DNA of 35,461 nt. Origin: Magnetococcales bacterium. GTDB lineage: Bacteria; Pseudomonadota; Magnetococcia; Magnetococcales; JADGAQ01. Position numbers and translations under genes: made by a program. The stretch is taken from contig JADGAQ010000019.1 of NCBI GenBank assembly GCA_015231925.1, positions 1 to 35,461 of the forward strand, read 5' to 3'. Under the pieces are notes generated by a model. It did not search any database. It had not been told where the DNA came from and saw only the letters and a list, made by a program, of their open reading frames with translations. This document shows positions 2,910 to 33,980 of this stretch, one piece after another. The stretch's first letter is position 1. The number at the start of each line of letters is the position of its first letter.

Positions 2910-4301
2910 TCAAAGGCCATAAACCAGGGTGGCGATGATCAGGTAGTTGATCACCCCCAGCACATCCACCGTGGTCAACACGTAAGGACCGCCCCCGACG
3001 GCGGGATCATGCCCCAGGCGTTGCAGCAGCAGGGGCAGCGAAGCGGCGATGACACCCGAATAGACGATGTTCGACAGAATGCTGATTCCCACCACGAAAG
3101 CCAGCGTGGTGCTGTGAAACACCACGATGGCGTAGGTGGATAAGGCAATGCCGTAAAACGAACCGATCAACAGGCCGGACAGGGTCTCCTTGGTGAGCAG
3201 TTTCAGGAAATCACTGACCTGAATGGCCCCGGTAGCCAAACCGCGCACCGCGACGGTCGCCGTCTGACTGCCGACATTACCCGCCATGCCGAAGATCATG
3301 GGCATGAAGAAACTCAACTGAATCACCGCCGCCATGGTGGCCTCGTATTTGCCCAGGATATAGGCCGCCACCAATCCTCCCAGAAACGGCCCCACCAGCC
3401 AGGGAATACGCCCCTTGGCCACCTTGATGAAGGATTGGGCCATGATGCTGAGGTTGGAGTCAGCGTCCACACCGCTGGCTTTCAACATCGACTGGGTGTG
3501 AACGTCCTGAATCACATGGATCAGATCGTCCACGGTGATGATGCCCCGCAGCACCCCCTGATCATTGACCACGGGCAGGGCCAGCAGACGGCTGCTGCTG
3601 ATCAGATTGGCCGCCTCCTCCTGAGTGGCGGAGACGTTCACCGACATCACCCGGGGATCCATGATCTCCCGAAGGGGTTTCTCCGCCGGAGAGAGCAGCA
3701 GTTGCCGCAACGAGGTCACGCCGGTCAGGCGCTGCTCCTCGTCCAGGACATAGACGTAAAATACGAACTCGTGGAACGGCAGACTGCGCACCGTCTGAAT
3801 GGCGGCCCGGGCGGTAATGCCCTCCTCCAGGGCGAAAAACCGGGAGGTCATCAGACTGCCCGCGGTGTTGGGCAGGTACTGCAACAGATCCTGGATCTCC
3901 TTGCGGATCTCCTGGGAGAGGGCATTCATCAGCCGGTCGCCAACCTCATGGCTCAACTTGCCGATGAGATGGCTGCGGGTGTCCGGAGCCAGGCTTTCCA
4001 GAATGGCCACGGCCCGATCCTGGGAGCAACTGGAAACGATATGGACCTGAAAATCGTCCGTCAGCTCCTTGAGGGTCAAGCCCGCCTGCATGGGGCTCTG
4101 GATCAGTTCGAAGAGATCCATGGCCTCTTCGAGGCTGTTGGAGGAGTTGATGACCTGGGCCACGTCTGCGGGCAGCAGCTTGCCCACGACCCGGGCCAAT
4201 CGGGCCTGGGATCCCATCTGATAGAGGCGGTGAATGGCTTCGGCATACTTGGACGGAATGGCGGAATCGGCGGACTTCCCGGTTTCGATATCGACTTGCA
4301 T
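2910..4301 (-). CDS. mgtE: MgtE-family magnesium channel, paralogue 2
   Basis: This is a second full-length MgtE (463 residues) with the same order of N domain, CBS pair and five membrane segments. The pore motif GNVGSQ at 341-346 and the TM5 Asp446 (TTVDVLG) are both intact, and their numbering matches paralogue 1 exactly. That argues for an old tandem duplication, since the sequences themselves have diverged widely. ATG 4301 has AGGTG about 8 bases upstream; an in-frame TTG at 4349 would only add residues unlike the family. The stop at 2910 abuts the start region of paralogue 1, so the pair forms an operon. Having two adjacent copies could allow hetero-oligomers or different Mg2+ thresholds (inference). 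Confidence 0.94.
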   Translation of the reverse strand: MQVDIETGKSADSAIPSKYAEAIHRLYQMGSQARLARVVGKLLPADVAQVINSSNSLEEAMDLFELIQSPMQAGLTLKELTDDFQVHIVSSCSQDRAVAILESLAPDTRSHLIGKLSHEVGDRLMNALSQEIRKEIQDLLQYLPNTAGSLMTSRFFALEEGITARAAIQTVRSLPFHEFVFYVYVLDEEQRLTGVTSLRQLLLSPAEKPLREIMDPRVMSVNVSATQEEAANLISSSRLLALPVVNDQGVLRGIITVDDLIHVIQDVHTQSMLKASGVDADSNLSIMAQSFIKVAKGRIPWLVGPFLGGLVAAYILGKYEATMAAVIQLSFFMPMIFGMAGNVGSQTATVAVRGLATGAIQVSDFLKLLTKETLSGLLIGSFYGIALSTYAIVVFHSTTLAFVVGISILSNIVYSGVIAASLPLLLQRLGHDPAVGGGPYVLTTVDVLGVINYLIIATLVYGL

Positions 4302-4981: not shown

Positions 4982-5809
4982 ATGGGTCACATCACGTCGT
5001 CGAACGCCGGCCCGGTCAAGTCCCTGCTGCTGACCACAGACGGTTCCGAGTACAGTCGAGGCACGGAGCGGGTGGCCATCGACATGGCCAGGCAGCATGG
5101 TTCGCATGTTTATGCTTTGCGCCTGCTCATGTCTCCGAGCGGAACGGACGACGCCCTTCTGGAAGCGGAGGAGATTGCCCGGCAGATGGAGCTGCTTCAG
5201 GAGAGCTGCGCCGCGCATCATATTCCCTTCACACCGCTGACCCGTTCGGCGACGGATCCGGCCAAGGGTATTCTGGAGGTGGCTGCCGAGACGGAGACCG
5301 AGTTGATCGTGGTCGGGCGGCGGGGACGGCGAGGTTTGGCGCGTCACAAGGTGGGTGAGGCCACCACCACCATTCTGGAGGAGGCGGTCTGTCCGGTTCT
5401 GGTGGTGCCGCGTCTGGTTTCCATCTGGAGCAACGGGGTGTTGGCCGTCACCACGGCTTCCGAGTCCGCCGCGCCGCGTGCCGCAGCCCGCATGGCGATA
5501 CATGCCGTGGTGCCCATGACATGTTTGATGGTGATTGACGAGGATGCGGAGGATGCGGCTCGGGAGGAGGCCAATCGACTGCTGGCCATTCAGGTGGAAG
5601 AGGCGGAAAAAATGGGTCTGGCCGCTGCGGGGGTTCTGCAGGCGGGAGCCTTTGATGAAACCGCCATGGATCTGGCCCGGCAGCGTTCGGCAGATTTGTT
5701 GGTGTGTGACTATTTTGATGACCGCTCCCTGCTGGAGAAGCTCTTTCACCCCAGCTCGCTGATCAAGCTGATCGGGCAGGCGCACTGTCCCGTCCTGGTG
5801 GTCAAATAA
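4982..5809 (+). CDS. uspA: Universal stress protein with two UspA domains
   Basis: The 275-residue cytosolic protein carries two tandem Usp domains. Domain 1 (about 12-144) opens with SLLLTTDGSEYS and has the nucleotide-binding pattern G-2x-G-9x-G at 112-125 (GRRG, then nine residues, then G125). The Ser/Thr that normally follows is Glu126, so ATP binding may be altered. Domain 2 (about 150-275) ends with CPVLVVK but lacks the glycine loop (CDYFDDRSLLEKLF) and is probably non-binding. ATG 4982 has GAGAGG about ten bases upstream. The gene lies between mgtE genes, and its upstream palindrome is shared with mgtE-3. A stress role tied to ion balance is inference from this context. Confidence 0.9.
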   Translation: MGHITSSNAGPVKSLLLTTDGSEYSRGTERVAIDMARQHGSHVYALRLLMSPSGTDDALLEAEEIARQMELLQESCAAHHIPFTPLTRSATDPAKGILEVAAETETELIVVGRRGRRGLARHKVGEATTTILEEAVCPVLVVPRLVSIWSNGVLAVTTASESAAPRAAARMAIHAVVPMTCLMVIDEDAEDAAREEANRLLAIQVEEAEKMGLAAAGVLQAGAFDETAMDLARQRSADLLVCDYFDDRSLLEKLFHPSSLIKLIGQAHCPVLVVK

Positions 5810-5811
5810 TG

Positions 5812-6286
5812 AATACGGGGGTCCGGGGGGGGATTATCCCCCCCGGCAGGGTTCGGGGCCGCGCCCCGAGGTGTTGACCTGGCCTTTGGCGGGTCGAAGC
5901 CCTGAAAGAAAGCGCACCAACCCGGCCCACCGCACAATCCTGTTGAACACTTCGACCCGCCGGAGAGGGCACGGGGAGGGACTCATCCTCCCCATCCTTT
6001 TGAAACACGCCAACTCATCCCCGGTTTGGACTTTCAGAAAAAAGGAACCTCCCCTCTCCGAACAGCCCCGGCTTTGTCCTGGTGGGGCGTTCAAGGATGG
6101 GGAGGATGAGGCCCTCCCCTAACCCCCTCCAGGCGGGTCGAAGTGGTGACGGGGTTCGGCAGCGGTGCGACGTTGGGAATTTCACCCTTTGGCTTCGACC
6201 CGCCACGTCAACGGCTAAAACCCTGGGGCTCCGCCCCAGACCCCGCCAGGGGGGATAATCCCCCCCGGACCCCCGTATTAATTTAA
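5812..6286. mobile_element. Nested palindromic MITE-like element (~475 bp)
   Basis: The two halves are imperfect inverted repeats of each other. Both ends read AATACGGGGGTCCGGGGG (the right one in reverse complement). Inside each arm follow a CCCC hairpin, the 12-mer GGCGGGTCGAAG, its inverse, and a GGGGAGGG..CTCATCCTCCCCATCC stretch, with the centre near 6050. The 12-mer occurs four times in alternating orientation, at 5888-5899, 5950-5961, 6132-6143 and 6193-6204. No ORF of interest is present. It fits a miniature inverted-repeat element or a large terminator-like structure between uspA and mgtE-3. No target-site duplication could be confirmed by eye. Confidence 0.65.
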
Positions 6287-7681
6287 CTACAGCCCGTACA
6301 GCGCGTTGGCCACCAGGAAGTAGGTGCCAACGCCCAGGAGGTCGATCGCCGTCAGGACAAACGGCCCCGAAGCCACCGCCGGGTCGGCGCCGATCCTCTG
6401 GAAAAACAACGGCAGACTCGCCGCCAACATGGCCGCCATGGTCATATTGAGCAGTATGGTCGCCACCAGCGTCTGACTCAATGCCAAGTCGCGATAAAAC
6501 ACATAAGCAATCACACCCAGCAAGACCCCGTAAAACCCTCCCAACAACAACCCCACCCGCAGCTCCTTGAGCAGCAAAGGCAATAGCTGATTGAGTTTCA
6601 CCGCACCCGTGGCCAACCCCCGCACCGCCACCGTGGCCGCTACATTGCCCACATTGCCGGCCATGCCCAGAATAATCGGCAGAAAGGCCCCCAAGGCCAA
6701 CACCTTGCTCAAGGTGGTCTCGAAAGAGTTGATCACCAGACTGGCCCCCAGCCCCCCCACGAAGGCGGCGATCAGCCAGGGCAGCCGGATGCGGAAAATC
6801 TTGAAGGCCGAGGTGGCCAGGATTTCCGAACTGCTGGTCCCGGCGTGCTTCAACACCTCGTCGGTCACCTCCTGCTCCAAAACCCCGATCACATCATCCA
6901 CCGTCACCAGCCCGACCAGAACCCCCTGTTCATCCACGACCGGCACGGCCAGCAGCCGGTATCGCCGGGCGATTTCCGCCACCTCGTCCTGGGGTGAGCT
7001 GGTGCGCACCTTGACCACCCGCCGGTTCATCATCTGCGCCAGGGTATATTCGGGCTTGGCCAGCAGCAGCTGCCGCAACGAACTCACTCCCGACAACCGC
7101 CCCTCCCCGTCCACCACATACAGATAGAATACCATCTCGTAGGTCGGCAGATTGCGCACCGACTCGATGGCATTTTGCACGGTCGTGGCTTCGTTCAGGG
7201 CGAAAAACTGCGTCGTCATCAACCCGCCCGCCGTATCGGGATGATACTGCAGCAGGTTCTCCACGTCCTTCTGGGCCTCCTTGTTGAGGCTCTCCAACAG
7301 GCGTTGAGCCAGCTCGGCATCCAGATGGCCGAACAGATCGGTGCGGGCATCCGGCGCCATCTTTTCCAGAATGGGAATGATTTTTTGCATCTCCCCGTCC
7401 TTCAGAATCTCGTTCTGCAGGGAGACGCTCACCTCTTTGAGTACGGAAGCGGCCGTGGCTGAGGCTGGAATCAGATAGAAGATTTTGGCCGCATCATCCT
7501 CGGGAAAGTGGTCCAGAATCTGAGCCATATCCGCCGGGAGCGTCTTGCCAAGAATCTTTTGTAATGGAGTAAAGGATTGTTTATTATATAATCGGCTAAT
7601 GGTTTGAGCAAACATCTCAATCTGCGTGCGTTCGCTGCCCTTTCGAGTCTCTCCATCGGTACTGATCATCATTCCACTCAT
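6287..7681 (-). CDS. mgtE: MgtE-family magnesium transporter, paralogue 3 (variant pore motif)
   Basis: The 464-residue protein has the MgtE N domain, a CBS pair (VDEQGVLVGLVTVDDVIGVLEQ near 249-270) and five membrane segments from about residue 300. TM5 keeps GADPAVASGP and Asp447 (TAIDLLG). The pore motif differs from the other two copies: GNVG at 342-345 is followed by NVA instead of SQT, so the conserved Ser-Gln is lost. Ion selectivity or gating may therefore differ. ATG 7681 is preceded by a strong purine-rich site (GAGAGAGG, about 6 bases); longer in-frame readings upstream are unlike the family. The gene has a ~200-nt leader with hairpins and the palindrome shared with uspA, so it is probably regulated apart from copies 1 and 2. 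Confidence 0.93.
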   Translation of the reverse strand: MSGMMISTDGETRKGSERTQIEMFAQTISRLYNKQSFTPLQKILGKTLPADMAQILDHFPEDDAAKIFYLIPASATAASVLKEVSVSLQNEILKDGEMQKIIPILEKMAPDARTDLFGHLDAELAQRLLESLNKEAQKDVENLLQYHPDTAGGLMTTQFFALNEATTVQNAIESVRNLPTYEMVFYLYVVDGEGRLSGVSSLRQLLLAKPEYTLAQMMNRRVVKVRTSSPQDEVAEIARRYRLLAVPVVDEQGVLVGLVTVDDVIGVLEQEVTDEVLKHAGTSSSEILATSAFKIFRIRLPWLIAAFVGGLGASLVINSFETTLSKVLALGAFLPIILGMAGNVGNVAATVAVRGLATGAVKLNQLLPLLLKELRVGLLLGGFYGVLLGVIAYVFYRDLALSQTLVATILLNMTMAAMLAASLPLFFQRIGADPAVASGPFVLTAIDLLGVGTYFLVANALYGL

Positions 7682-8673: not shown

Positions 8674-8854
8674 AAAAGCTCCCTCTTCGGCCTGGAATGT
8701 CAGGAAGATGTCAACACATCCCAACATCTTGTAAGGTTTTTATAAATATCTCCCTTGCGTCCCCCGCCAGATTTGTCACAATTTGCACTGCACAATCAAG
8801 TGCTGTCCATTTGCTCTCCTTTTTTCGGCGCCCTCCGTCCTTCGGGAGATTGCC

Positions 8855-10225
8855 ATGCAAACCGAGGTCATGCACGTCGTCATCTTTGGCGCGGGACTTG
8901 TGGGGGCCGCGCTGGGACGACACATCGCCGATCAGGGGCACGATGTCTGGTTCATCGAATCCAACCCCGAAACCGTGCGCAAACTGCGGGAACGCTACGA
9001 CGTGCAGATCGTCCAGGGCTCGGCGGAAGACCCGGAAACCCTTCAGGAGGCCGGCGTGTCCCGGGCCGATCTGATCCTGGTGGTCACCAACCTCGACAAG
9101 ACCAACATCATCCTCACCCTCATCGCCCGTTCCCTCAATCCGAGCGCCCGCATCATCCTGCGGGTCAAGGGGGAAGAGTACCTCAACAACAAACTGCTGT
9201 GGAAATCGGCCAACCTGGCCGACACCGTCATCATCTCCCCGGAACACTCGGTCATCGACAAGGCCATGGCCATCCTGGAGGTGCAGCAGGCCTTCGATGT
9301 GGCCGAATTCGCCGACGGCGAGATCCGCGTGGCCGGGTTCCGCCTGGAAGAGGGCTCCCCCCTGATCGGCAAGCCCCTCAGGGAGGTCATGCCCAACTAC
9401 GACCGGCGCATCCTGGTGGTGGCGGCGGACCGCGACGGCCAGGTCTTCACCCCCAAGGGGAGCAGCGTTCTGCAACTCGGCGACCGGGTCTTCGTCACCG
9501 TGCTGGCCGCCGTCGACATGGACGCCCTGCTCTCCCTCTTCGGCAAAACCTATCGCCACAATCCCAAATTCGTCCTGGCCGGCGGCAGCCCCATCGGGGA
9601 ATCCATCGCCCGGGAACTGGAACATCGCGGTCACAAACCCGTGCTGCTCGAACCCGACTTCAACCGCTGCCGTGAGCTGGCCGGACTGATGAAACACACC
9701 GTCGTCCTGCACGGCGATGTGGCCGACGCCGCCCTGTTGCAACGCATCATCGACGAAGACACCATCTTCCTCTCGGTCACCACCTCCCAGGAGGTCAATT
9801 TCCTGGTCTCCATGCTCTCCCGCAAACTCGGCTCGGTGCGGGCCATCACCATGATGGACAACGAAGCCTATCTGGCCATGGCCCCCTCCCTGGGGGTCGA
9901 CGCGGTTCTGAGTCCGCGCATCTCCGCCGTGGGCGCCATTCTGCGCTATGTGCGCATGGGCCGCATCCTCGATTCCGCCATGCTCCTCGACGGACAGATC
10001 AACCTGCTGCTGGCCGAGGTGGAGCCCCGCTCCCACCTGGACGGCATCGCCGTGCGACAAGCCAGCTTCCCGCCGGGAGTCCTCATCGCCGCCGCCATCC
10101 ACAACAACCGCGCCGTGGTGCCCGACGGCGACATGGTGCTGCATGCCGGGGACAGGGTGTTGCTGGCCACCCCCATGCTGAAATCCCTCTCCACCCTGGA
10201 CGAGTTGATCGCCCCCAAACGGTAA
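8855..10225 (+). CDS. trkA: Trk potassium uptake regulatory subunit TrkA
   Basis: TrkA is the cytosolic NAD(H)/nucleotide-binding ring protein that gates the TrkH K+ channel. The 456-residue protein has the classic double layout: RCK/TrkA-N domain 1 with GAGLVG at 12-17 and acidic E35 at the end of strand 2 (FIESNPE), a TrkA-C domain (about 150-220), a second Rossmann domain (AGGSPIG near 242-248, LLEPDFNRC), and a second TrkA-C domain to the C-terminus. ATG 8855 has GGGAG six bases upstream; in-frame readings further up have no such site. The length is normal for the family. trkH follows after 24 bases, so the two form an operon. Confidence 0.95.
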   Translation: MQTEVMHVVIFGAGLVGAALGRHIADQGHDVWFIESNPETVRKLRERYDVQIVQGSAEDPETLQEAGVSRADLILVVTNLDKTNIILTLIARSLNPSARIILRVKGEEYLNNKLLWKSANLADTVIISPEHSVIDKAMAILEVQQAFDVAEFADGEIRVAGFRLEEGSPLIGKPLREVMPNYDRRILVVAADRDGQVFTPKGSSVLQLGDRVFVTVLAAVDMDALLSLFGKTYRHNPKFVLAGGSPIGESIARELEHRGHKPVLLEPDFNRCRELAGLMKHTVVLHGDVADAALLQRIIDEDTIFLSVTTSQEVNFLVSMLSRKLGSVRAITMMDNEAYLAMAPSLGVDAVLSPRISAVGAILRYVRMGRILDSAMLLDGQINLLLAEVEPRSHLDGIAVRQASFPPGVLIAAAIHNNRAVVPDGDMVLHAGDRVLLATPMLKSLSTLDELIAPKR

Positions 10226-11686: not shown

Positions 11687-11713
11687 ACCGGCTGACATGG
11701 CATCTGTCCAGTC

Positions 11714-11886
11714 ATACGGGGGTTCGGGGGGGATTATCCCCCCCGACGGGTCCAGGGCAGCGCCCTGGGACTTTTCCTTTCGCCGTTGACACGATCATGC
11801 TGCACCATGCAGGGGTCTGAATAGTTACAAAAAGTCAAAGGACAGAACATTTCCTTTTTTTGATACTTAAAAGATAAAATATTGAA
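11714..11886 (+). repeat. Composite repeat, copy F (one GC unit plus AT box)
   Basis: ATACGGGGGTTCGGGGGGG and its C-run partner are followed by a single CCAGGG..CCCTGG hairpin, TTTTCCTTTCGCCGTTGAC, the box CTGAATAGTTAC (11818-11829), and the AT box at 11834-11886. It separates the convergent ends of trkH and the acyltransferase gene. This is the cleanest single-unit copy and is useful for defining the consensus. Confidence 0.8.
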
Positions 11887-11897
11887 GGTCAAAAAAT

Positions 11898-13070
11898 TTA
11901 GAATATCTTCCCGCCATTGACGGCTTTGCCCAGACGGATGCAGGGCAGCTCGACCCAGCGGTAGAGCCATTCCGACAGCCACAGGGTCAGCGGCAGGGAG
12001 ATGAGGAAGCCGGTCAACCACGCCCCGTCAACCGGCATCCCGGCTGCGACCAGGCGCTGCAGCAGCCAGGGCGTGAAAGCGAGCAGCACGGTGACATGGC
12101 ACAGATAGAGGCCGTAGGAAACCCGCCCCAGAAACCGCACCGGCTGGCTGACCAACCAGCGCTGCAACTCCGGCATACCCAGCACGGAAACGAGAATCAG
12201 CGCCGCACCGCAACCGGTGACCAGCCGCATGACCGGATTGGTGACGAAATCGCTCACCTCGAAGAACCTCTCGAACCACACGCCCACCAGGGTGTTGCGC
12301 CCGCTGTACAACAGCAGCCCCACCCCCAGCATGAACCAGCGCACCAGGGACGGCATGGCGAGAACGCGGCTCTGAACCTGCTGGAAGTGTCTGGCCAACA
12401 GCACCCCCAGGGTAAAGTGCAGCAAGGCCGGGGAGACCCCCGCCACCAATCCGGCAAGGCAAAAGGCCACCAGCCAGGCCGTGCCACGAAAAGCCAGCAG
12501 CACCATGAAGGGAATCAGAAAAGAGAAGTGCATCTCCAGACGCAACGACCAATCCTGGAAGAGCAAGGCCTCCGGCGGTCTGCGAAAAATCAGCGCGGCC
12601 TGCCACAGGAAGGAGGTCAGATCCACCTCTTTCTGCCACAAACCCCGATACCAGATCGACACCGACATCGGCAGCTCCCGCACCTCGAACAGGTAGTGCC
12701 GCACCAGCCAGGAGAGCGCCAGCACCACCAGAAACGGGCCGCCGATGCGCACCACCCGGGCCAGGTAAAATCCCGCCAGGCTGAACCGCTCCGCTGAAAA
12801 ACGCTCCTGCCGGGCGAAATATTTGCGCGTCAGCACCAGCCCGCTCAAAACGAAGAACAGGGAAACCGCCGCAAACCCGTCCCACACCATATGCAGCGGC
12901 GAGGAGACAAACATCTTTTTTACCAGCGCCGGGGTCATCTGTGGAAACCCGAAGAACCCCAGATAGTGGTCGCAGAAGACCACCAAGGCGGCCACGCCGC
13001 GCACCCCGTCCAGGTAATCGATACGCTCCGACGATTCGCCGCCGGCGGGGATGGCGTTCGGGAGGCTCAT
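11898..13070 (-). CDS. Acyltransferase 3 family (OafA-like) membrane protein
   Basis: The 390-residue polytopic protein belongs to the acyltransferase-3 family, which moves acetyl or other acyl groups onto surface glycans. The N-terminal DYLDGVRGVAALVVFCDHY box carries the family R-X10-H motif (R24 and H35). A SLFFVLSGLVLTRKYF box follows, then many membrane helices, with FLGRVSYGLYLCHV near the C-terminus. ATG 13070 overlaps the stop of the upstream Wzt gene as ATGA, pointing to translational coupling. It is the last gene of the minus-strand polysaccharide operon, so the exported glycan is the likely substrate (inference from context). Confidence 0.9.
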   Translation of the reverse strand: MSLPNAIPAGGESSERIDYLDGVRGVAALVVFCDHYLGFFGFPQMTPALVKKMFVSSPLHMVWDGFAAVSLFFVLSGLVLTRKYFARQERFSAERFSLAGFYLARVVRIGGPFLVVLALSWLVRHYLFEVRELPMSVSIWYRGLWQKEVDLTSFLWQAALIFRRPPEALLFQDWSLRLEMHFSFLIPFMVLLAFRGTAWLVAFCLAGLVAGVSPALLHFTLGVLLARHFQQVQSRVLAMPSLVRWFMLGVGLLLYSGRNTLVGVWFERFFEVSDFVTNPVMRLVTGCGAALILVSVLGMPELQRWLVSQPVRFLGRVSYGLYLCHVTVLLAFTPWLLQRLVAAGMPVDGAWLTGFLISLPLTLWLSEWLYRWVELPCIRLGKAVNGGKIF

Positions 13071-14347
13071 GCCCGCTGATCCGCTTCGACCTGCCACAGC
13101 AGCAGGGGGCGCAGACTACCCGGCATCTCGCCGGCGTATCCGCAACGGGTCGGGCAACCCTCGATCGGATCGCGCACCGAAAGGCACAGGGCCCCGTACT
13201 CCAGAACGTGATCCCGGATCAGGGAATGGAAAGAGGAGATGGCCAGATCGATGAAGTAGGGTCCGTCGTTGAAGAAGTTGCCGGGAATATGGCACACCGC
13301 CCGATGCACCCCCGGCTCCTTCGGAGGCGGGGCGGAGCAGATGGAAAAGAAGGCCATGCTGCCATCGGAGCGATTGACGCGGATATTGGGATGGAGTTGA
13401 CCGGGGGAATGTTTCAGTATCTCGTAGGTCAGGGTGACGGTGAAGGGTTTGTCGATATCGACCTCCGGGGCGATGTCGCCATTTTCATCCCGCACGGCGG
13501 CGTGGAGCAGGCGCACCGTATCGTTGCCGGCGGGGCGCTCCCGGCGGGTGAAGTCGCAACTGGCGGCCCCCTGGCCGTCGTCACTCTTGTAGTAACTCAG
13601 CACCACGTCGCCGGGACGACCGTCGGCGACGATACGCCCCCGCTCCAACAACACCGCGCGACTGCACAGGGAGAGAATCATGGACATGCTGTGGCTGACG
13701 AAGAGGACGGTACGTCCTTCCTGACTGACCTCCTGCATGCGACCCAGGCACTTCTTCTGGAAACGGGCGTCCCCCACCGCCAAAACCTCGTCCACCAGGA
13801 GGATTTCCGGGTCGAGGTGGGCGGCCACCGCGAAGGCCAGACGCACGTACATGCCGCTGGAGTAGCGTTTGACCGGGGTATCCAGAAAGGTTTCCACCTC
13901 GGAGAAGGCGACGATTTCGTCGAACTTCCGGGTAATCTCCCGACGCGACATGCCCAATACGGCGCCGTTCAGGAAGATGTTCTCCCGGCCCGTCAGTTCC
14001 GGATGAAAACCGGTACCCACTTCCAGCAGGGTTCCCAGACGGCCCCGGACTTCGATGCGACCGCAGGTGGGCTCGGTGATGCGGCTGATGACCTTGAGGA
14101 GGGTGCTTTTGCCGGCGCCGTTGCGTCCGATGATCCCGACCACTTCTCCGGGAGGGATGTCGAGATCGATCCCCTGCAGGGCCCAGAAGCGGCGCGAGGC
14201 CTCCTCCGAGGGGCGTTGCCCCGTCAGCAGACGCCACGGCGCGGTGACCAGCCGGGTCAAAGCGCTACGGAAATCTTCCGCGTGGCGGGTGCCCAACAGG
14301 TACTCCTTGCCGACGCCACGCGCCTTGATGGCCAGATTGTCCAACAC
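13067..14347 (-). CDS. wzt: Wzt-type polysaccharide ABC transporter ATPase, copy 1
   Basis: This is the cytosolic ATPase of a Wzm/Wzt O-antigen-type exporter (426 residues). The nucleotide-binding domain has Walker A GRNGAGKST (74-82), signature YSSGM (162-166), Walker B ILLVDE (182-187) and the H-loop His219. A C-terminal Wzt_C-like beta domain (about 275-410) follows, which in the family binds the glycan to be exported. The start is GTG 14347 or the adjacent TTG 14344; GGAGG lies just upstream and the TTG gives better spacing. The Wzm permease gene ends 11 bases upstream, and the acyltransferase start overlaps this stop. Residues about 89-273 are encoded by DNA identical to copy 2. Confidence 0.93.
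   Translation of the reverse strand: MLDNLAIKARGVGKEYLLGTRHAEDFRSALTRLVTAPWRLLTGQRPSEEASRRFWALQGIDLDIPPGEVVGIIGRNGAGKSTLLKVISRITEPTCGRIEVRGRLGTLLEVGTGFHPELTGRENIFLNGAVLGMSRREITRKFDEIVAFSEVETFLDTPVKRYSSGMYVRLAFAVAAHLDPEILLVDEVLAVGDARFQKKCLGRMQEVSQEGRTVLFVSHSMSMILSLCSRAVLLERGRIVADGRPGDVVLSYYKSDDGQGAASCDFTRRERPAGNDTVRLLHAAVRDENGDIAPEVDIDKPFTVTLTYEILKHSPGQLHPNIRVNRSDGSMAFFSICSAPPPKEPGVHRAVCHIPGNFFNDGPYFIDLAISSFHSLIRDHVLEYGALCLSVRDPIEGCPTRCGYAGEMPGSLRPLLLWQVEADQRA
13527..14083 (-). repeat. 557-bp exact duplicate within wzt copy 1
   Basis: Compared base by base with 18991-19547, this stretch shows no difference that I could find. The sequences on both sides are homologous but clearly diverged. It covers the ATPase core from just after Walker A to the linker before the Wzt_C domain. 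Recent gene conversion explains it best. Confidence 0.85.
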
Positions 14348-14358
14348 GCCCTCCGGGA

Positions 14359-18177: not shown

Positions 18178-18368
18178 GATGATTGTCAATAATATTTTAA
18201 TTATTTATTGATAGATATTTATGCGGAGGTCATTATTTAATGTCCATCAGCTCACGACAACATCCAACCGGAACAGGCGCGAGAAATCTTAATTATGGAC
18301 GAAAAAGCCAAAAAATATAACCTTTTATTTTTTGATTTCCAGGAGATTAAATATAAGCATCTCTTCAG

Positions 18369-18484
18369 GTATACGGGGGTTCGGGGGGGATTATCCCCCC
18401 CGACGGGTCCAGGGCAGCGCCCCGGGACTCTTCCTTTTGCTGTTGACACGATCATGTCGAACTGTGCAGGAGCATGAATAGTTA
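18369..18484 (+). repeat. GC-hairpin repeat block, copy G
   Basis: The G-run/C-run hairpin, one CCAGGG..CCCGGG unit, a TTCCTTTTGCTGTTGAC tail and the end box ATGAATAGTTAG follow the same order as copy F. The AT box is missing or unrecognisable. The 436-bp gap 18110-18545 otherwise holds only an AT-rich stretch (18180-18366) in which I see no gene. Confidence 0.75.
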
Positions 18485-18545
18485 GAAACATTAAACGTCA
18501 AGAGACTTAAGGAATACACAAAACGGGTTGCAGCCCCTCCCCTTC

Positions 18546-19811
18546 TCACACGATATCCCAATGCAGCAGGGGTCGCAGACTCCCCGGCATCTCCCCGGCA
18601 TAACCACAGCGAGTCGGGTTGCCCTCGATCCGATCCCGAACCGAGAGACAAAGCACACCAAACTCCAGAACATGGTCTTCAAAAAATCCGTGATAGGTGG
18701 AAATGGCCAGGTCTATGAAATAGGGACCATCGTTAAAGAAGTTGCCAGGAATACAACAAACAGCCTGATGCACTCCGGACTCCTCCGGTGGCGCAACGGA
18801 GCAGATGGAAAAGAAAGCCATGACGCCATCGGCGCGCTTGACCCGAATATTGGGAAAATAGATGCCTGCCAATGGTTGCCGGATTTCGTAACTCATGGTT
18901 ACGGTAAATGGTTTGTCAATATCGATTTCGGCAGCCACAGCCCCCCTGTCGTCCCGCACGACGGCATGAAGCAGGCGGACTTTGTCGTTTCCGGCGGGGC
19001 GCTCCCGGCGGGTGAAGTCGCAACTGGCGGCCCCCTGGCCGTCGTCACTCTTGTAGTAACTCAGCACCACGTCGCCGGGACGACCGTCGGCGACGATACG
19101 CCCCCGCTCCAACAACACCGCGCGACTGCACAGGGAGAGAATCATGGACATGCTGTGGCTGACGAAGAGGACGGTACGTCCTTCCTGACTGACCTCCTGC
19201 ATGCGACCCAGGCACTTCTTCTGGAAACGGGCGTCCCCCACCGCCAAAACCTCGTCCACCAGGAGGATTTCCGGGTCGAGGTGGGCGGCCACCGCGAAGG
19301 CCAGACGCACGTACATGCCGCTGGAGTAGCGTTTGACCGGGGTATCCAGAAAGGTTTCCACCTCGGAGAAGGCGACGATTTCGTCGAACTTCCGGGTAAT
19401 CTCCCGACGCGACATGCCCAATACGGCGCCGTTCAGGAAGATGTTCTCCCGGCCCGTCAGTTCCGGATGAAAACCGGTACCCACTTCCAGCAGGGTTCCC
19501 AGACGGCCCCGGACTTCGATGCGACCGCAGGTGGGCTCGGTGATGCGACTGATGACCTTGAGAAAGGTGCTTTTGCCGGCGCCGTTGCGACCGATGATCC
19601 CGACCACTTCTCCGGGAGGGATGTCGAGATCGATCTCCTGCAGGGCCCAGAAGCGACGGGAAGCCCCCCCGGAGGGGGAACGACCGGTCAGCAGACGCCA
19701 TGGCGCGGTGACCAGACGGGTCATGGCGCTACGGAAGTCTTCCGCATCGCGGGTGCCCAGCAGGTACTCCTTGCCGACGTTGCGCGCCTTGATGGCCAGG
19801 TTGTCCAACAA
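18546..19811 (-). CDS. wzt: Wzt-type polysaccharide ABC transporter ATPase, copy 2
   Basis: This is a second 421-residue Wzt-like ATPase with Walker A GRNGAGKST, signature YSSGM, Walker B ILLVDE and an H-loop His. Its C-terminal domain resembles that of copy 1 but differs at many positions (for example IRQPLAGIYFPNIRVKRADGV against ILKHSPGQLHPNIRVNRSDGS). That domain senses the glycan in the family, so the two copies may recognise different chain ends. It probably starts at TTG 19811 (or TTG 19808), with GGAGG just upstream, as in copy 1. No permease gene adjoins it. It may share the single Wzm or be a spare copy. Confidence 0.92.
   Translation of the reverse strand: MLDNLAIKARNVGKEYLLGTRDAEDFRSAMTRLVTAPWRLLTGRSPSGGASRRFWALQEIDLDIPPGEVVGIIGRNGAGKSTFLKVISRITEPTCGRIEVRGRLGTLLEVGTGFHPELTGRENIFLNGAVLGMSRREITRKFDEIVAFSEVETFLDTPVKRYSSGMYVRLAFAVAAHLDPEILLVDEVLAVGDARFQKKCLGRMQEVSQEGRTVLFVSHSMSMILSLCSRAVLLERGRIVADGRPGDVVLSYYKSDDGQGAASCDFTRRERPAGNDKVRLLHAVVRDDRGAVAAEIDIDKPFTVTMSYEIRQPLAGIYFPNIRVKRADGVMAFFSICSVAPPEESGVHQAVCCIPGNFFNDGPYFIDLAISTYHGFFEDHVLEFGVLCLSVRDRIEGNPTRCGYAGEMPGSLRPLLHWDIV
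18991..19547 (-). repeat. 557-bp exact duplicate within wzt copy 2
   Basis: Partner of 13527-14083. The first differences appear at 19548 (A against G in copy 1) and just before 18991. See the copy 1 entry for the interpretation. Confidence 0.85.
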
Positions 19812-19834
19812 ATCCTCCGGTGTAGCCTTTTTGG

Positions 19835-20180
19835 CCTTTTAATATTTTGACTTTAAAAAATAAAAAAATGAGATGTTCTATCCTTTGACTTTATTAGTAT
19901 TATTTTGGCCAATCAGTATCTGTTCAAATATACGGGGGTTTGGGGGGGATTATCCCCCCCAACGGGTCCAGGGGGCACCCCTGGGACTTTTCCTTTCGCC
20001 GTTGACTTCGTCATATCGCGCTGCGCGGGATCCTGAATAGTTACAGAAAAATGACGCATTCCAAAGTGGACGCGGTATAGTTACGCCTATCAACAATACT
20101 GAAAAAATATTTCTGATAAAGAATACATCAAAGGACAGAACATTTCCTTTTTTTGCTACTTAAAAAGATAACATATTGAA
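19835..20180. repeat. GC-hairpin block flanked by inverted AT boxes, copy H
   Basis: An AT box in one orientation (19835-19889) is followed by the GC part (19928-20044, single hairpin variant CCAGGGGGCACCCCTGG and the box CTGAATAGTTAC), and then an AT box in the opposite orientation (20127-20180). The two boxes act as imperfect ~54-bp inverted termini around the hairpins, which looks like a miniature mobile element. It fills most of the 493-bp gap between wzt copy 2 and the epimerase gene. No ORF of note is present. Confidence 0.65.
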
Positions 20181-20304
20181 AGTCAAAGGATTTAACCTAT
20201 ATCCCCCCCTCGATCGCACCGCACCTCGCCAGGAAACTTGCCCGCCGAGGGCAGATTGCCGTAATAATAGCGGAGCGTCAACCTGCTTTGGGATCTCTCT
20301 TGCC

Positions 20305-21244: not shown

Positions 21245-21252
21245 TCACAGCC

Positions 21253-21308
21253 TTTCAATATGTTATCTTTTAAGTATCAAAAAAAAGGAAATGTTCTGTC
21301 TTTTGACT
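21253..21308 (+). repeat. AT box, isolated copy
   Basis: TTTCAATATGTTATC, TTTTAAGTATC, an A-run, GGAAATGTTCTGTC and TTTTGAC repeat the AT box in the plus orientation, 9 bases after the ArsR stop and between convergent genes. No GC hairpin part adjoins it, so the AT box can exist alone. Confidence 0.7.
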
Positions 21309-21343
21309 TTTCTGTTATATTGACAGACCGCCCATCTAAATAG

Positions 21344-33795: not shown

Positions 33796-33802
33796 ATCCG
33801 CC

Positions 33803-33980
33803 TTTTAATATTTTAAGTATCAAAAAAAGAAAATGTTCTGTCCTTTGACTTTTTGGTTTTTTCTTTGAATCTCTTAAAGAAAAAATAATTATATTTATTA
33901 AGTCAACTTCAAAACCTCAATAAAATTAAAAAGTCAAAGGAAAAGTCCTGAGGGGGCAGCAGAGCTCCCCCTCAGACTCC
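33803..33980 (-). repeat. AT box plus degenerate GC hairpin, copy J
   Basis: The AT box (33803-33850) follows the GNAT stop after 7 bases. After ~80 AT-rich bases comes AGTCAAAGGAAAAGTCC and a 9-bp hairpin CTGAGGGGG/CCCCCTCAG (33948-33975). The order matches the other composite repeats read in reverse. The GC part is strongly degenerated. Confidence 0.65.

Follow-up and report, generated by a model that had tools for sequence, protein, structure and literature searches.

A nested palindromic composite element dispersed in a Magnetococcales genome, with probable ancestry in the IS66/ISBst12 group

A gap between two convergent genes of a Magnetococcales bacterium is occupied by DNA that folds back on itself, which raises the question of what kind of element lies there, how it was assembled and what could have moved it. 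The window, the whole stretch of 35,461 nucleotides that was analysed, is contig 19 of the host genome (G000), a 4.5-Mb MAG of 358 contigs that is 97% complete. The protein encoded at 8783-10225 had its nearest named relatives in Magnetococcales MAGs (best identity 79%), and three named relatives (L043-L045), compared for an empty site at the element's own locus, aligned with the window only for genes from 8.8 kb on. The answer that we favor, at a probability of about 0.7, is a decayed, recombining, nested composite MITE, non-autonomous and non-coding, of IS66/ISBst12-group ancestry.

The composite is a nested inverted repeat dispersed through the host genome

The element is an imperfect 466-bp inverted repeat at window positions 5812-6279, in which two arms of ~187 bp face each other around a centre of ~89 bp. 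The first-pass annotation had described the whole ~475-bp gap, 5812-6286, as folding back on itself. The inverted repeat was borne out by the complementarity of the arms and by a strong fold, and the right limit was revised, the element proper ending at about 6279 and 6280-6286 being flank. The left end lies 3 bp past the stop codon (5807-5809) of the upstream gene and the right end 8 bp short of the stop codon (6287-6289) of the convergent gene, and the space between the two is filled almost entirely by the composite. Its parts are as follows.

5812-6279, no strand: whole composite palindromic element (conserved part 5813-6278)
5813-6000, + strand: left arm with modules A, B, D and E (profile match E = 6.7e-48)
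5823-5846, + strand: hairpin A of the left arm (CCGGGGGGGGATTATCCCCCCCGG), common across the order
5852-5869, + strand: hairpin B of the left arm, with paired columns in the arm alignment
5888-5899, + strand: 12-mer, 5' stem of hairpin D, left arm
5950-5961, - strand: inverted 12-mer, 3' stem of hairpin D, left arm
5962-5999, + strand: module E of the left arm, with the CTCATCCTCCCCATCC stretch at 5982-5997
6001-6089, - strand: centre, 89 bp, polarity label 'ba'
6090-6278, - strand: right arm, inverted (profile match E = 3.9e-46)
6093-6130, - strand: module E of the right arm, with CTCATCCTCCCCATCC inverted at 6095-6110
6132-6143, + strand: 12-mer, stem of hairpin D, right arm
6193-6204, - strand: inverted 12-mer, stem of hairpin D, right arm
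6246-6278, - strand: hairpin A and end of the right arm

The outer arms (5818-5875 and 6217-6274) were 79% complementary, the segments 5962-5999 and 6093-6130 were 87% complementary and two 14-15-bp pairs matched perfectly; terminal inverted repeats are present, with arms 79-100% complementary segment by segment. Folded as single-stranded DNA, the composite reached -164.9 kcal/mol compared with -95.9 (sd 5.1) for 100 dinucleotide shuffles (z = -13.6). Four 12-mers of alternating orientation (GGCGGGTCGAAG / CTTCGACCCGCC) were found where they had been reported, at 5888, 5950, 6132 and 6193, and the ends do resemble G-run/C-run repeats elsewhere in the window (150, 1238, 11714, 18371 and 19930). 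The label 'ba' denotes that the half of the centre similar to GCAGCCGGGGTTGTTC adjoins the right arm.

Other repeats were also observed in the window: a 1.26-kb direct duplication with 88.5% identity (13099-14356 and 18563-19820), a separate 50-77-bp repeat family (1404-1468, 11814-11900, 20128-20194, 21250-21329 and 33800-33855), and three related genes (1501-2892, 2910-4301 and 6287-7672) with DNA 65-67% alike in parts, which by eye we take to be MgtE-type transporter-like.

The suggested genome-wide searches recovered 78 copies of the 12-mer in the host genome (reversed control, 1) and 60 copies of the CTCATCCTCCCCATCC stretch with at most one mismatch (control, 0). The end motif ATACGGGGGTYCGGGGGG was present in 434 copies with at most two mismatches (reversed control, 0), and the composite query gave 119 matches in the host genome, from 40 of 413 candidates scored. 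A unique element, the outcome that would have spoken against a mobile one, was not what was found. In 1,004,746 bases read, made up of stretches enriched for element matches and 40 stretches picked by contig order, a profile search yielded 160 arm matches (85 complete), 28 two-armed composites, whose centres measured 61-161 bp (80-90 bp in 17 cases), and 29 solo arms, including 12 at stretch ends. Bacterial MITEs are short, non-coding, dispersed, intergenic sequences with inverted ends. The composite is like them in each of these features, being short, multi-copy and dispersed and carrying no transposase gene, but differs in that nearly all of its 466 bp are palindromic and that it contains separate hairpins with alternative paired stems.

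Among 60 relatives, the composite query matched 34 of the 47 that belong to the host's order and none of the 13 from the wider phylum. Among the matches listed, those outside the host genome covered essentially the outer 60-80 bp only (hairpins A and B), with the exception of a longer half-arm match on contig 253 of G008. That contig (L153) carries a half-composite and smaller elements like those of the host, either through lateral transfer or because the contig was misplaced. At another locus (L038), a 79-bp hairpin unit occurs three times in direct tandem, at 1509, 1588 and 1667; at L128 (G000:C236:4524-5235), three arms spaced 279-293 bp apart all have the same orientation, probably through tandem amplification. 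Many contigs (e.g., C7, C8, C13, C18, C48, C64, C65, C69, C77, C80 and C85) carry the end motif in roughly their first 60 bp, so the family probably accounts for part of the assembly fragmentation. No title on these repeats in Magnetococcales, nor on an ISBst12 MITE, was found among open-licence PMC papers.

Empty sites in relatives, which had been proposed as a check, were seen at one locus, at the level of gene order. The composite on C85 lies between genes that we take to be pilB and pilC by sequence recognition, with a stop-to-start gap of 525 bp; in the 22 relatives with both genes readable, the gap ranged from -1 to 173 bp (median 11). These represent 22 of 29 relative loci, as 7 of 30 loci were dropped with one gene of the pair unreadable.

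Placement between genes and paired changes in the stems

Genes were called by an in-house hexamer script instead of a standard gene finder. In the window and 40 stretches, none of 34 end-motif clusters lay within a predicted gene; 12 were in convergent gaps, 17 in tandem gaps, 3 in divergent gaps and 2 at edges, compared with a convergent background of 65 of 573 gaps (Fisher p = 0.0002). None of the 19 composites with both neighbours lay within a gene or in a divergent gap (8 convergent, 11 tandem), and 9 more were at edges; the convergent background was 80 of 657 gaps (Fisher p = 0.0014). Insertions that disrupt genes or promoters may have been selected against, which would account for a location just past stop codons and in convergent gaps.

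The alignment of 75 arms contained conserved pairs in hairpins B, D and E. The commonest stem D, CGGGTCGAAG/CTTCGACCCG, occurred in 36 copies, and four variants were also fully paired: CGGTCCGCAG/CTGCGGACCG in 8 copies, CGGTCCGAAG/CTTCGGACCG in 5, and CGGTCCGCCG/CGGCGGACCG and CGGTCCGCTG/CAGCGGACCG in 2 each, together with rarer and partly unpaired forms. Three variable pairs of stem D were paired in 73/75, 74/75 and 73/74 arms, where shuffles averaged 41.2, 57.8 and 46.2; such counts are inflated by kinship of the sequences.

Judged from sequence, such hairpins could end or insulate transcripts, and the host might have adopted the element, whatever its mobile origin, as a bidirectional terminator, an insulator or a 3'-end stabiliser. 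The excess of composites in convergent gaps and the several fully paired forms of stem D are in keeping with this, yet the same placement would be expected if copies simply avoided genes and promoters, and template switching in palindromes can, as is generally known, yield paired changes without selection. Copies flank many unrelated genes, terminator-like hits numbered 3 in 5600-6500 versus 1.5 in shuffles, and an Rfam scan of the window returned no family at gathering score. The data suggest that host adoption is rather unlikely, and the element did not prove to be only a conserved, gene-coupled RNA structure, the second outcome named in advance as counting against mobility. It is also unlikely that the nested hairpins themselves are selected, with paired stems kept by repeated compensatory change, in which case the element would be a domesticated foldback MITE. 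No description of such a foldback MITE for IS66 was found in the open-licence PMC literature. The further idea attached to it, that the folded single strand or its RNA would be needed, be it for the element's own spread or to block transcription on both strands between convergent genes, is improbable to the same degree.

Smaller elements and the IS66/ISBst12 group

Smaller related elements (type 2), with a TTCGG end and bounded by GTATCTGTTCAG and CTGAATAGTTAC, are present in the window at the following positions.

137-295, + strand: type-2-like element
1225-1376, + strand: type-2 element, smaller and related, with TTCGG end
11700-11831, + strand: type-2 element with right end CTGAATAGTTAC
18357-18488, + strand: type-2 element
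19912-20043, + strand: type-2-like element

Exact 8-bp duplications (TCCTTCTT and CCGCTATA) flanked 2 of 16 type-2 candidate pairs, the others showing partial duplications or, in several cases, none, and a tandem type-2 pair carried CCGGAACT on both outer sides. The GTAACTATTCAG end, with at most one mismatch, was counted 150 times in G000 (control, 0), 118 in G020 (control, 3), 102 in G028 (control, 11) and 54 in G008 (control, 1). In G020 and G008, 20 paired-end loci (GTAACTATTCAG...CTGAATAGTTAC), taken from listed sites with ends close together, enclosed similar double hairpins; 8-bp duplications were exact at 9 and within one mismatch at 11 of the 20, the best end pair being used at each locus, which slightly favours duplications.

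ISDge4, a member of the ISBst12 group of IS66, is bounded by GTGACTACTCAGCA / GTAACTGCTCAGCA and has a direct repeat of 8 bp (PMC12898284). A GTAACT..TCAG-type end and an 8-bp duplication are common to the group and to the type-2 and G020/G008 elements. For a parent transposase with similar ends, sought at the suggestion of the first-pass annotation, the candidates are remnants: four IS66 remnants have GTAACYRTTCAS-like ends (G000:C51, G008:C283, G028:C223 and G028:C90), and no intact IS66 transposase was found. By their coordinates, the end lies ~180-210 bp beyond the conserved IS66 domain in the first three, and the remnant at G028:C90 is flanked by two such ends. Remnants on C183 and C246 were rejected as parents, their ends being GTAAGCG-like; no GTAACYRTTCAS-like end was found at the remnants on C58 and G008:C299 (L216). 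G020, the genome with the cleanest duplications, gave no PF03050 match at E 1e-5. An IS66/ISBst12 ancestry of the small elements is well supported.

The composite is tied to this group by a common A-B core and by a TTCAG relic, which was present at offset -9 in 15 of 61 type-1 ends; between -14 and -6, none of the eight remaining offsets showed it. The relic was absent from 46 of the 61, and the window composite has it at neither end. The composite keeps an end relic of the ISBst12 group but differs from it in having no transposase gene and no visible duplications and in being filled by nested hairpins. From the core and the relic, we infer the same ancestry for the composite.

The two kinds of element also meet physically. 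One type-2 copy is lodged within a type-1 arm, and at five loci in G000 (C85:1669, C83:294, C122:330, C108:12055-12714 and C173:320) the apex of a composite, or of an arm with its centre, holds a type-2 end. At C108 the 8-bp duplication is exact. Either target preference or common descent could account for these positions. IS elements are known to insert into REP palindromes, and five families are named in one account, IS66 not among them (PMC1525189). The apex loci resemble that situation, but the inserted element is itself MITE-like and of the same group as the composite.

In 17 two-ended rows, two of which join type-1 to type-2 ends and leave 15, no convincing target duplication of the composite was found within 55 bp of either end. 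Duplications could have been lost by recombination or decay, and their absence does not exclude transposition. A RAYT (Y1) transposase that moved two inverted REP-type palindromes as one hairpin of single-stranded DNA would leave no duplication, and REPINs are described as inverted palindrome doublets that form hairpins (PMC3116915). The composite shares with REPINs and BIMEs the inverted palindrome pair, the long hairpin, the intergenic sites and the hundreds of related units, but it is far longer, its smaller relatives have 8-bp duplications and IS66-type ends, and the host lacks Y1/RAYT: the 97%-complete genome gave no match to Y1_Tnp (PF01797), while the same search was positive in 6 of 14 control genomes. 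A REP/RAYT origin was rejected on this search, and a REPIN-like element is quite unlikely.

Spread of the composite and exchange of arms

The original proposal had offered two origins, a composite MITE or two smaller elements inserted head-to-head. The former is supported by the dispersal, the intergenic sites, the one empty-site case and the transposase remnants with matching ends. The latter fails as a series of separate events, one per locus, and may hold as a single ancient event. Neighbouring arms 30-260 bp apart (n = 31) faced inward in 28 cases and were direct in 3, with none outward, which indicates that the composite spread as a unit rather than by fresh head-to-head insertions. The centres were homologous between composites; their polarity could be assigned from the two halves in 20 of 28 and not in 8, the label presuming that the two halves have opposite sense. 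Although solo arms do exist, the idea that each locus received a small element twice, independently and head-to-head, is contradicted by the constant inward orientation, the homologous centres and the many solo arms that run on into centre sequence, and is highly improbable. The pattern fits one ancestral composite that then spread.

Arms were examined as separate lineages by centre polarity, and this division was rejected, the tree having 13 label changes compared with a shuffled mean of 14.7. Sorting the tree by genomic strand gave no information on arm lineages. The identity of an arm to its own partner (0.744) was no higher than to arms of the same label (0.766) or of the other label (0.758). 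Since arms are mixed across polarity labels and partners are no more alike, the mixing is read as arm exchange by recombination between copies. A shared outer extension (CATCTTGGGATGTTGA-like) was present at five arm ends only (G000 C106, C138, C238 at two ends, and C308).

For the nested composite MITE of IS66/ISBst12-group ancestry, the following course is proposed. The composite would have arisen once, in an ancestor, when two hairpin-rich arms were joined head-to-head; an IS66-type transposase acting in trans would have moved it via its ends, and it would then have spread as a unit. Recombination among the copies would afterwards have shuffled the arms and, together with decay, removed the outer ends and the target duplications.

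It seems that the element in the window is one member of a broader family, whose small elements are parasites of a single known family of transposases. In this way the G-run/C-run palindromes that abound in Magnetococcales genomes would be tied to a named transposase family and no longer be anonymous repeats, and the composite would represent a case of a bacterial MITE grown into a nested, almost fully palindromic structure whose hairpins have been kept through paired changes.
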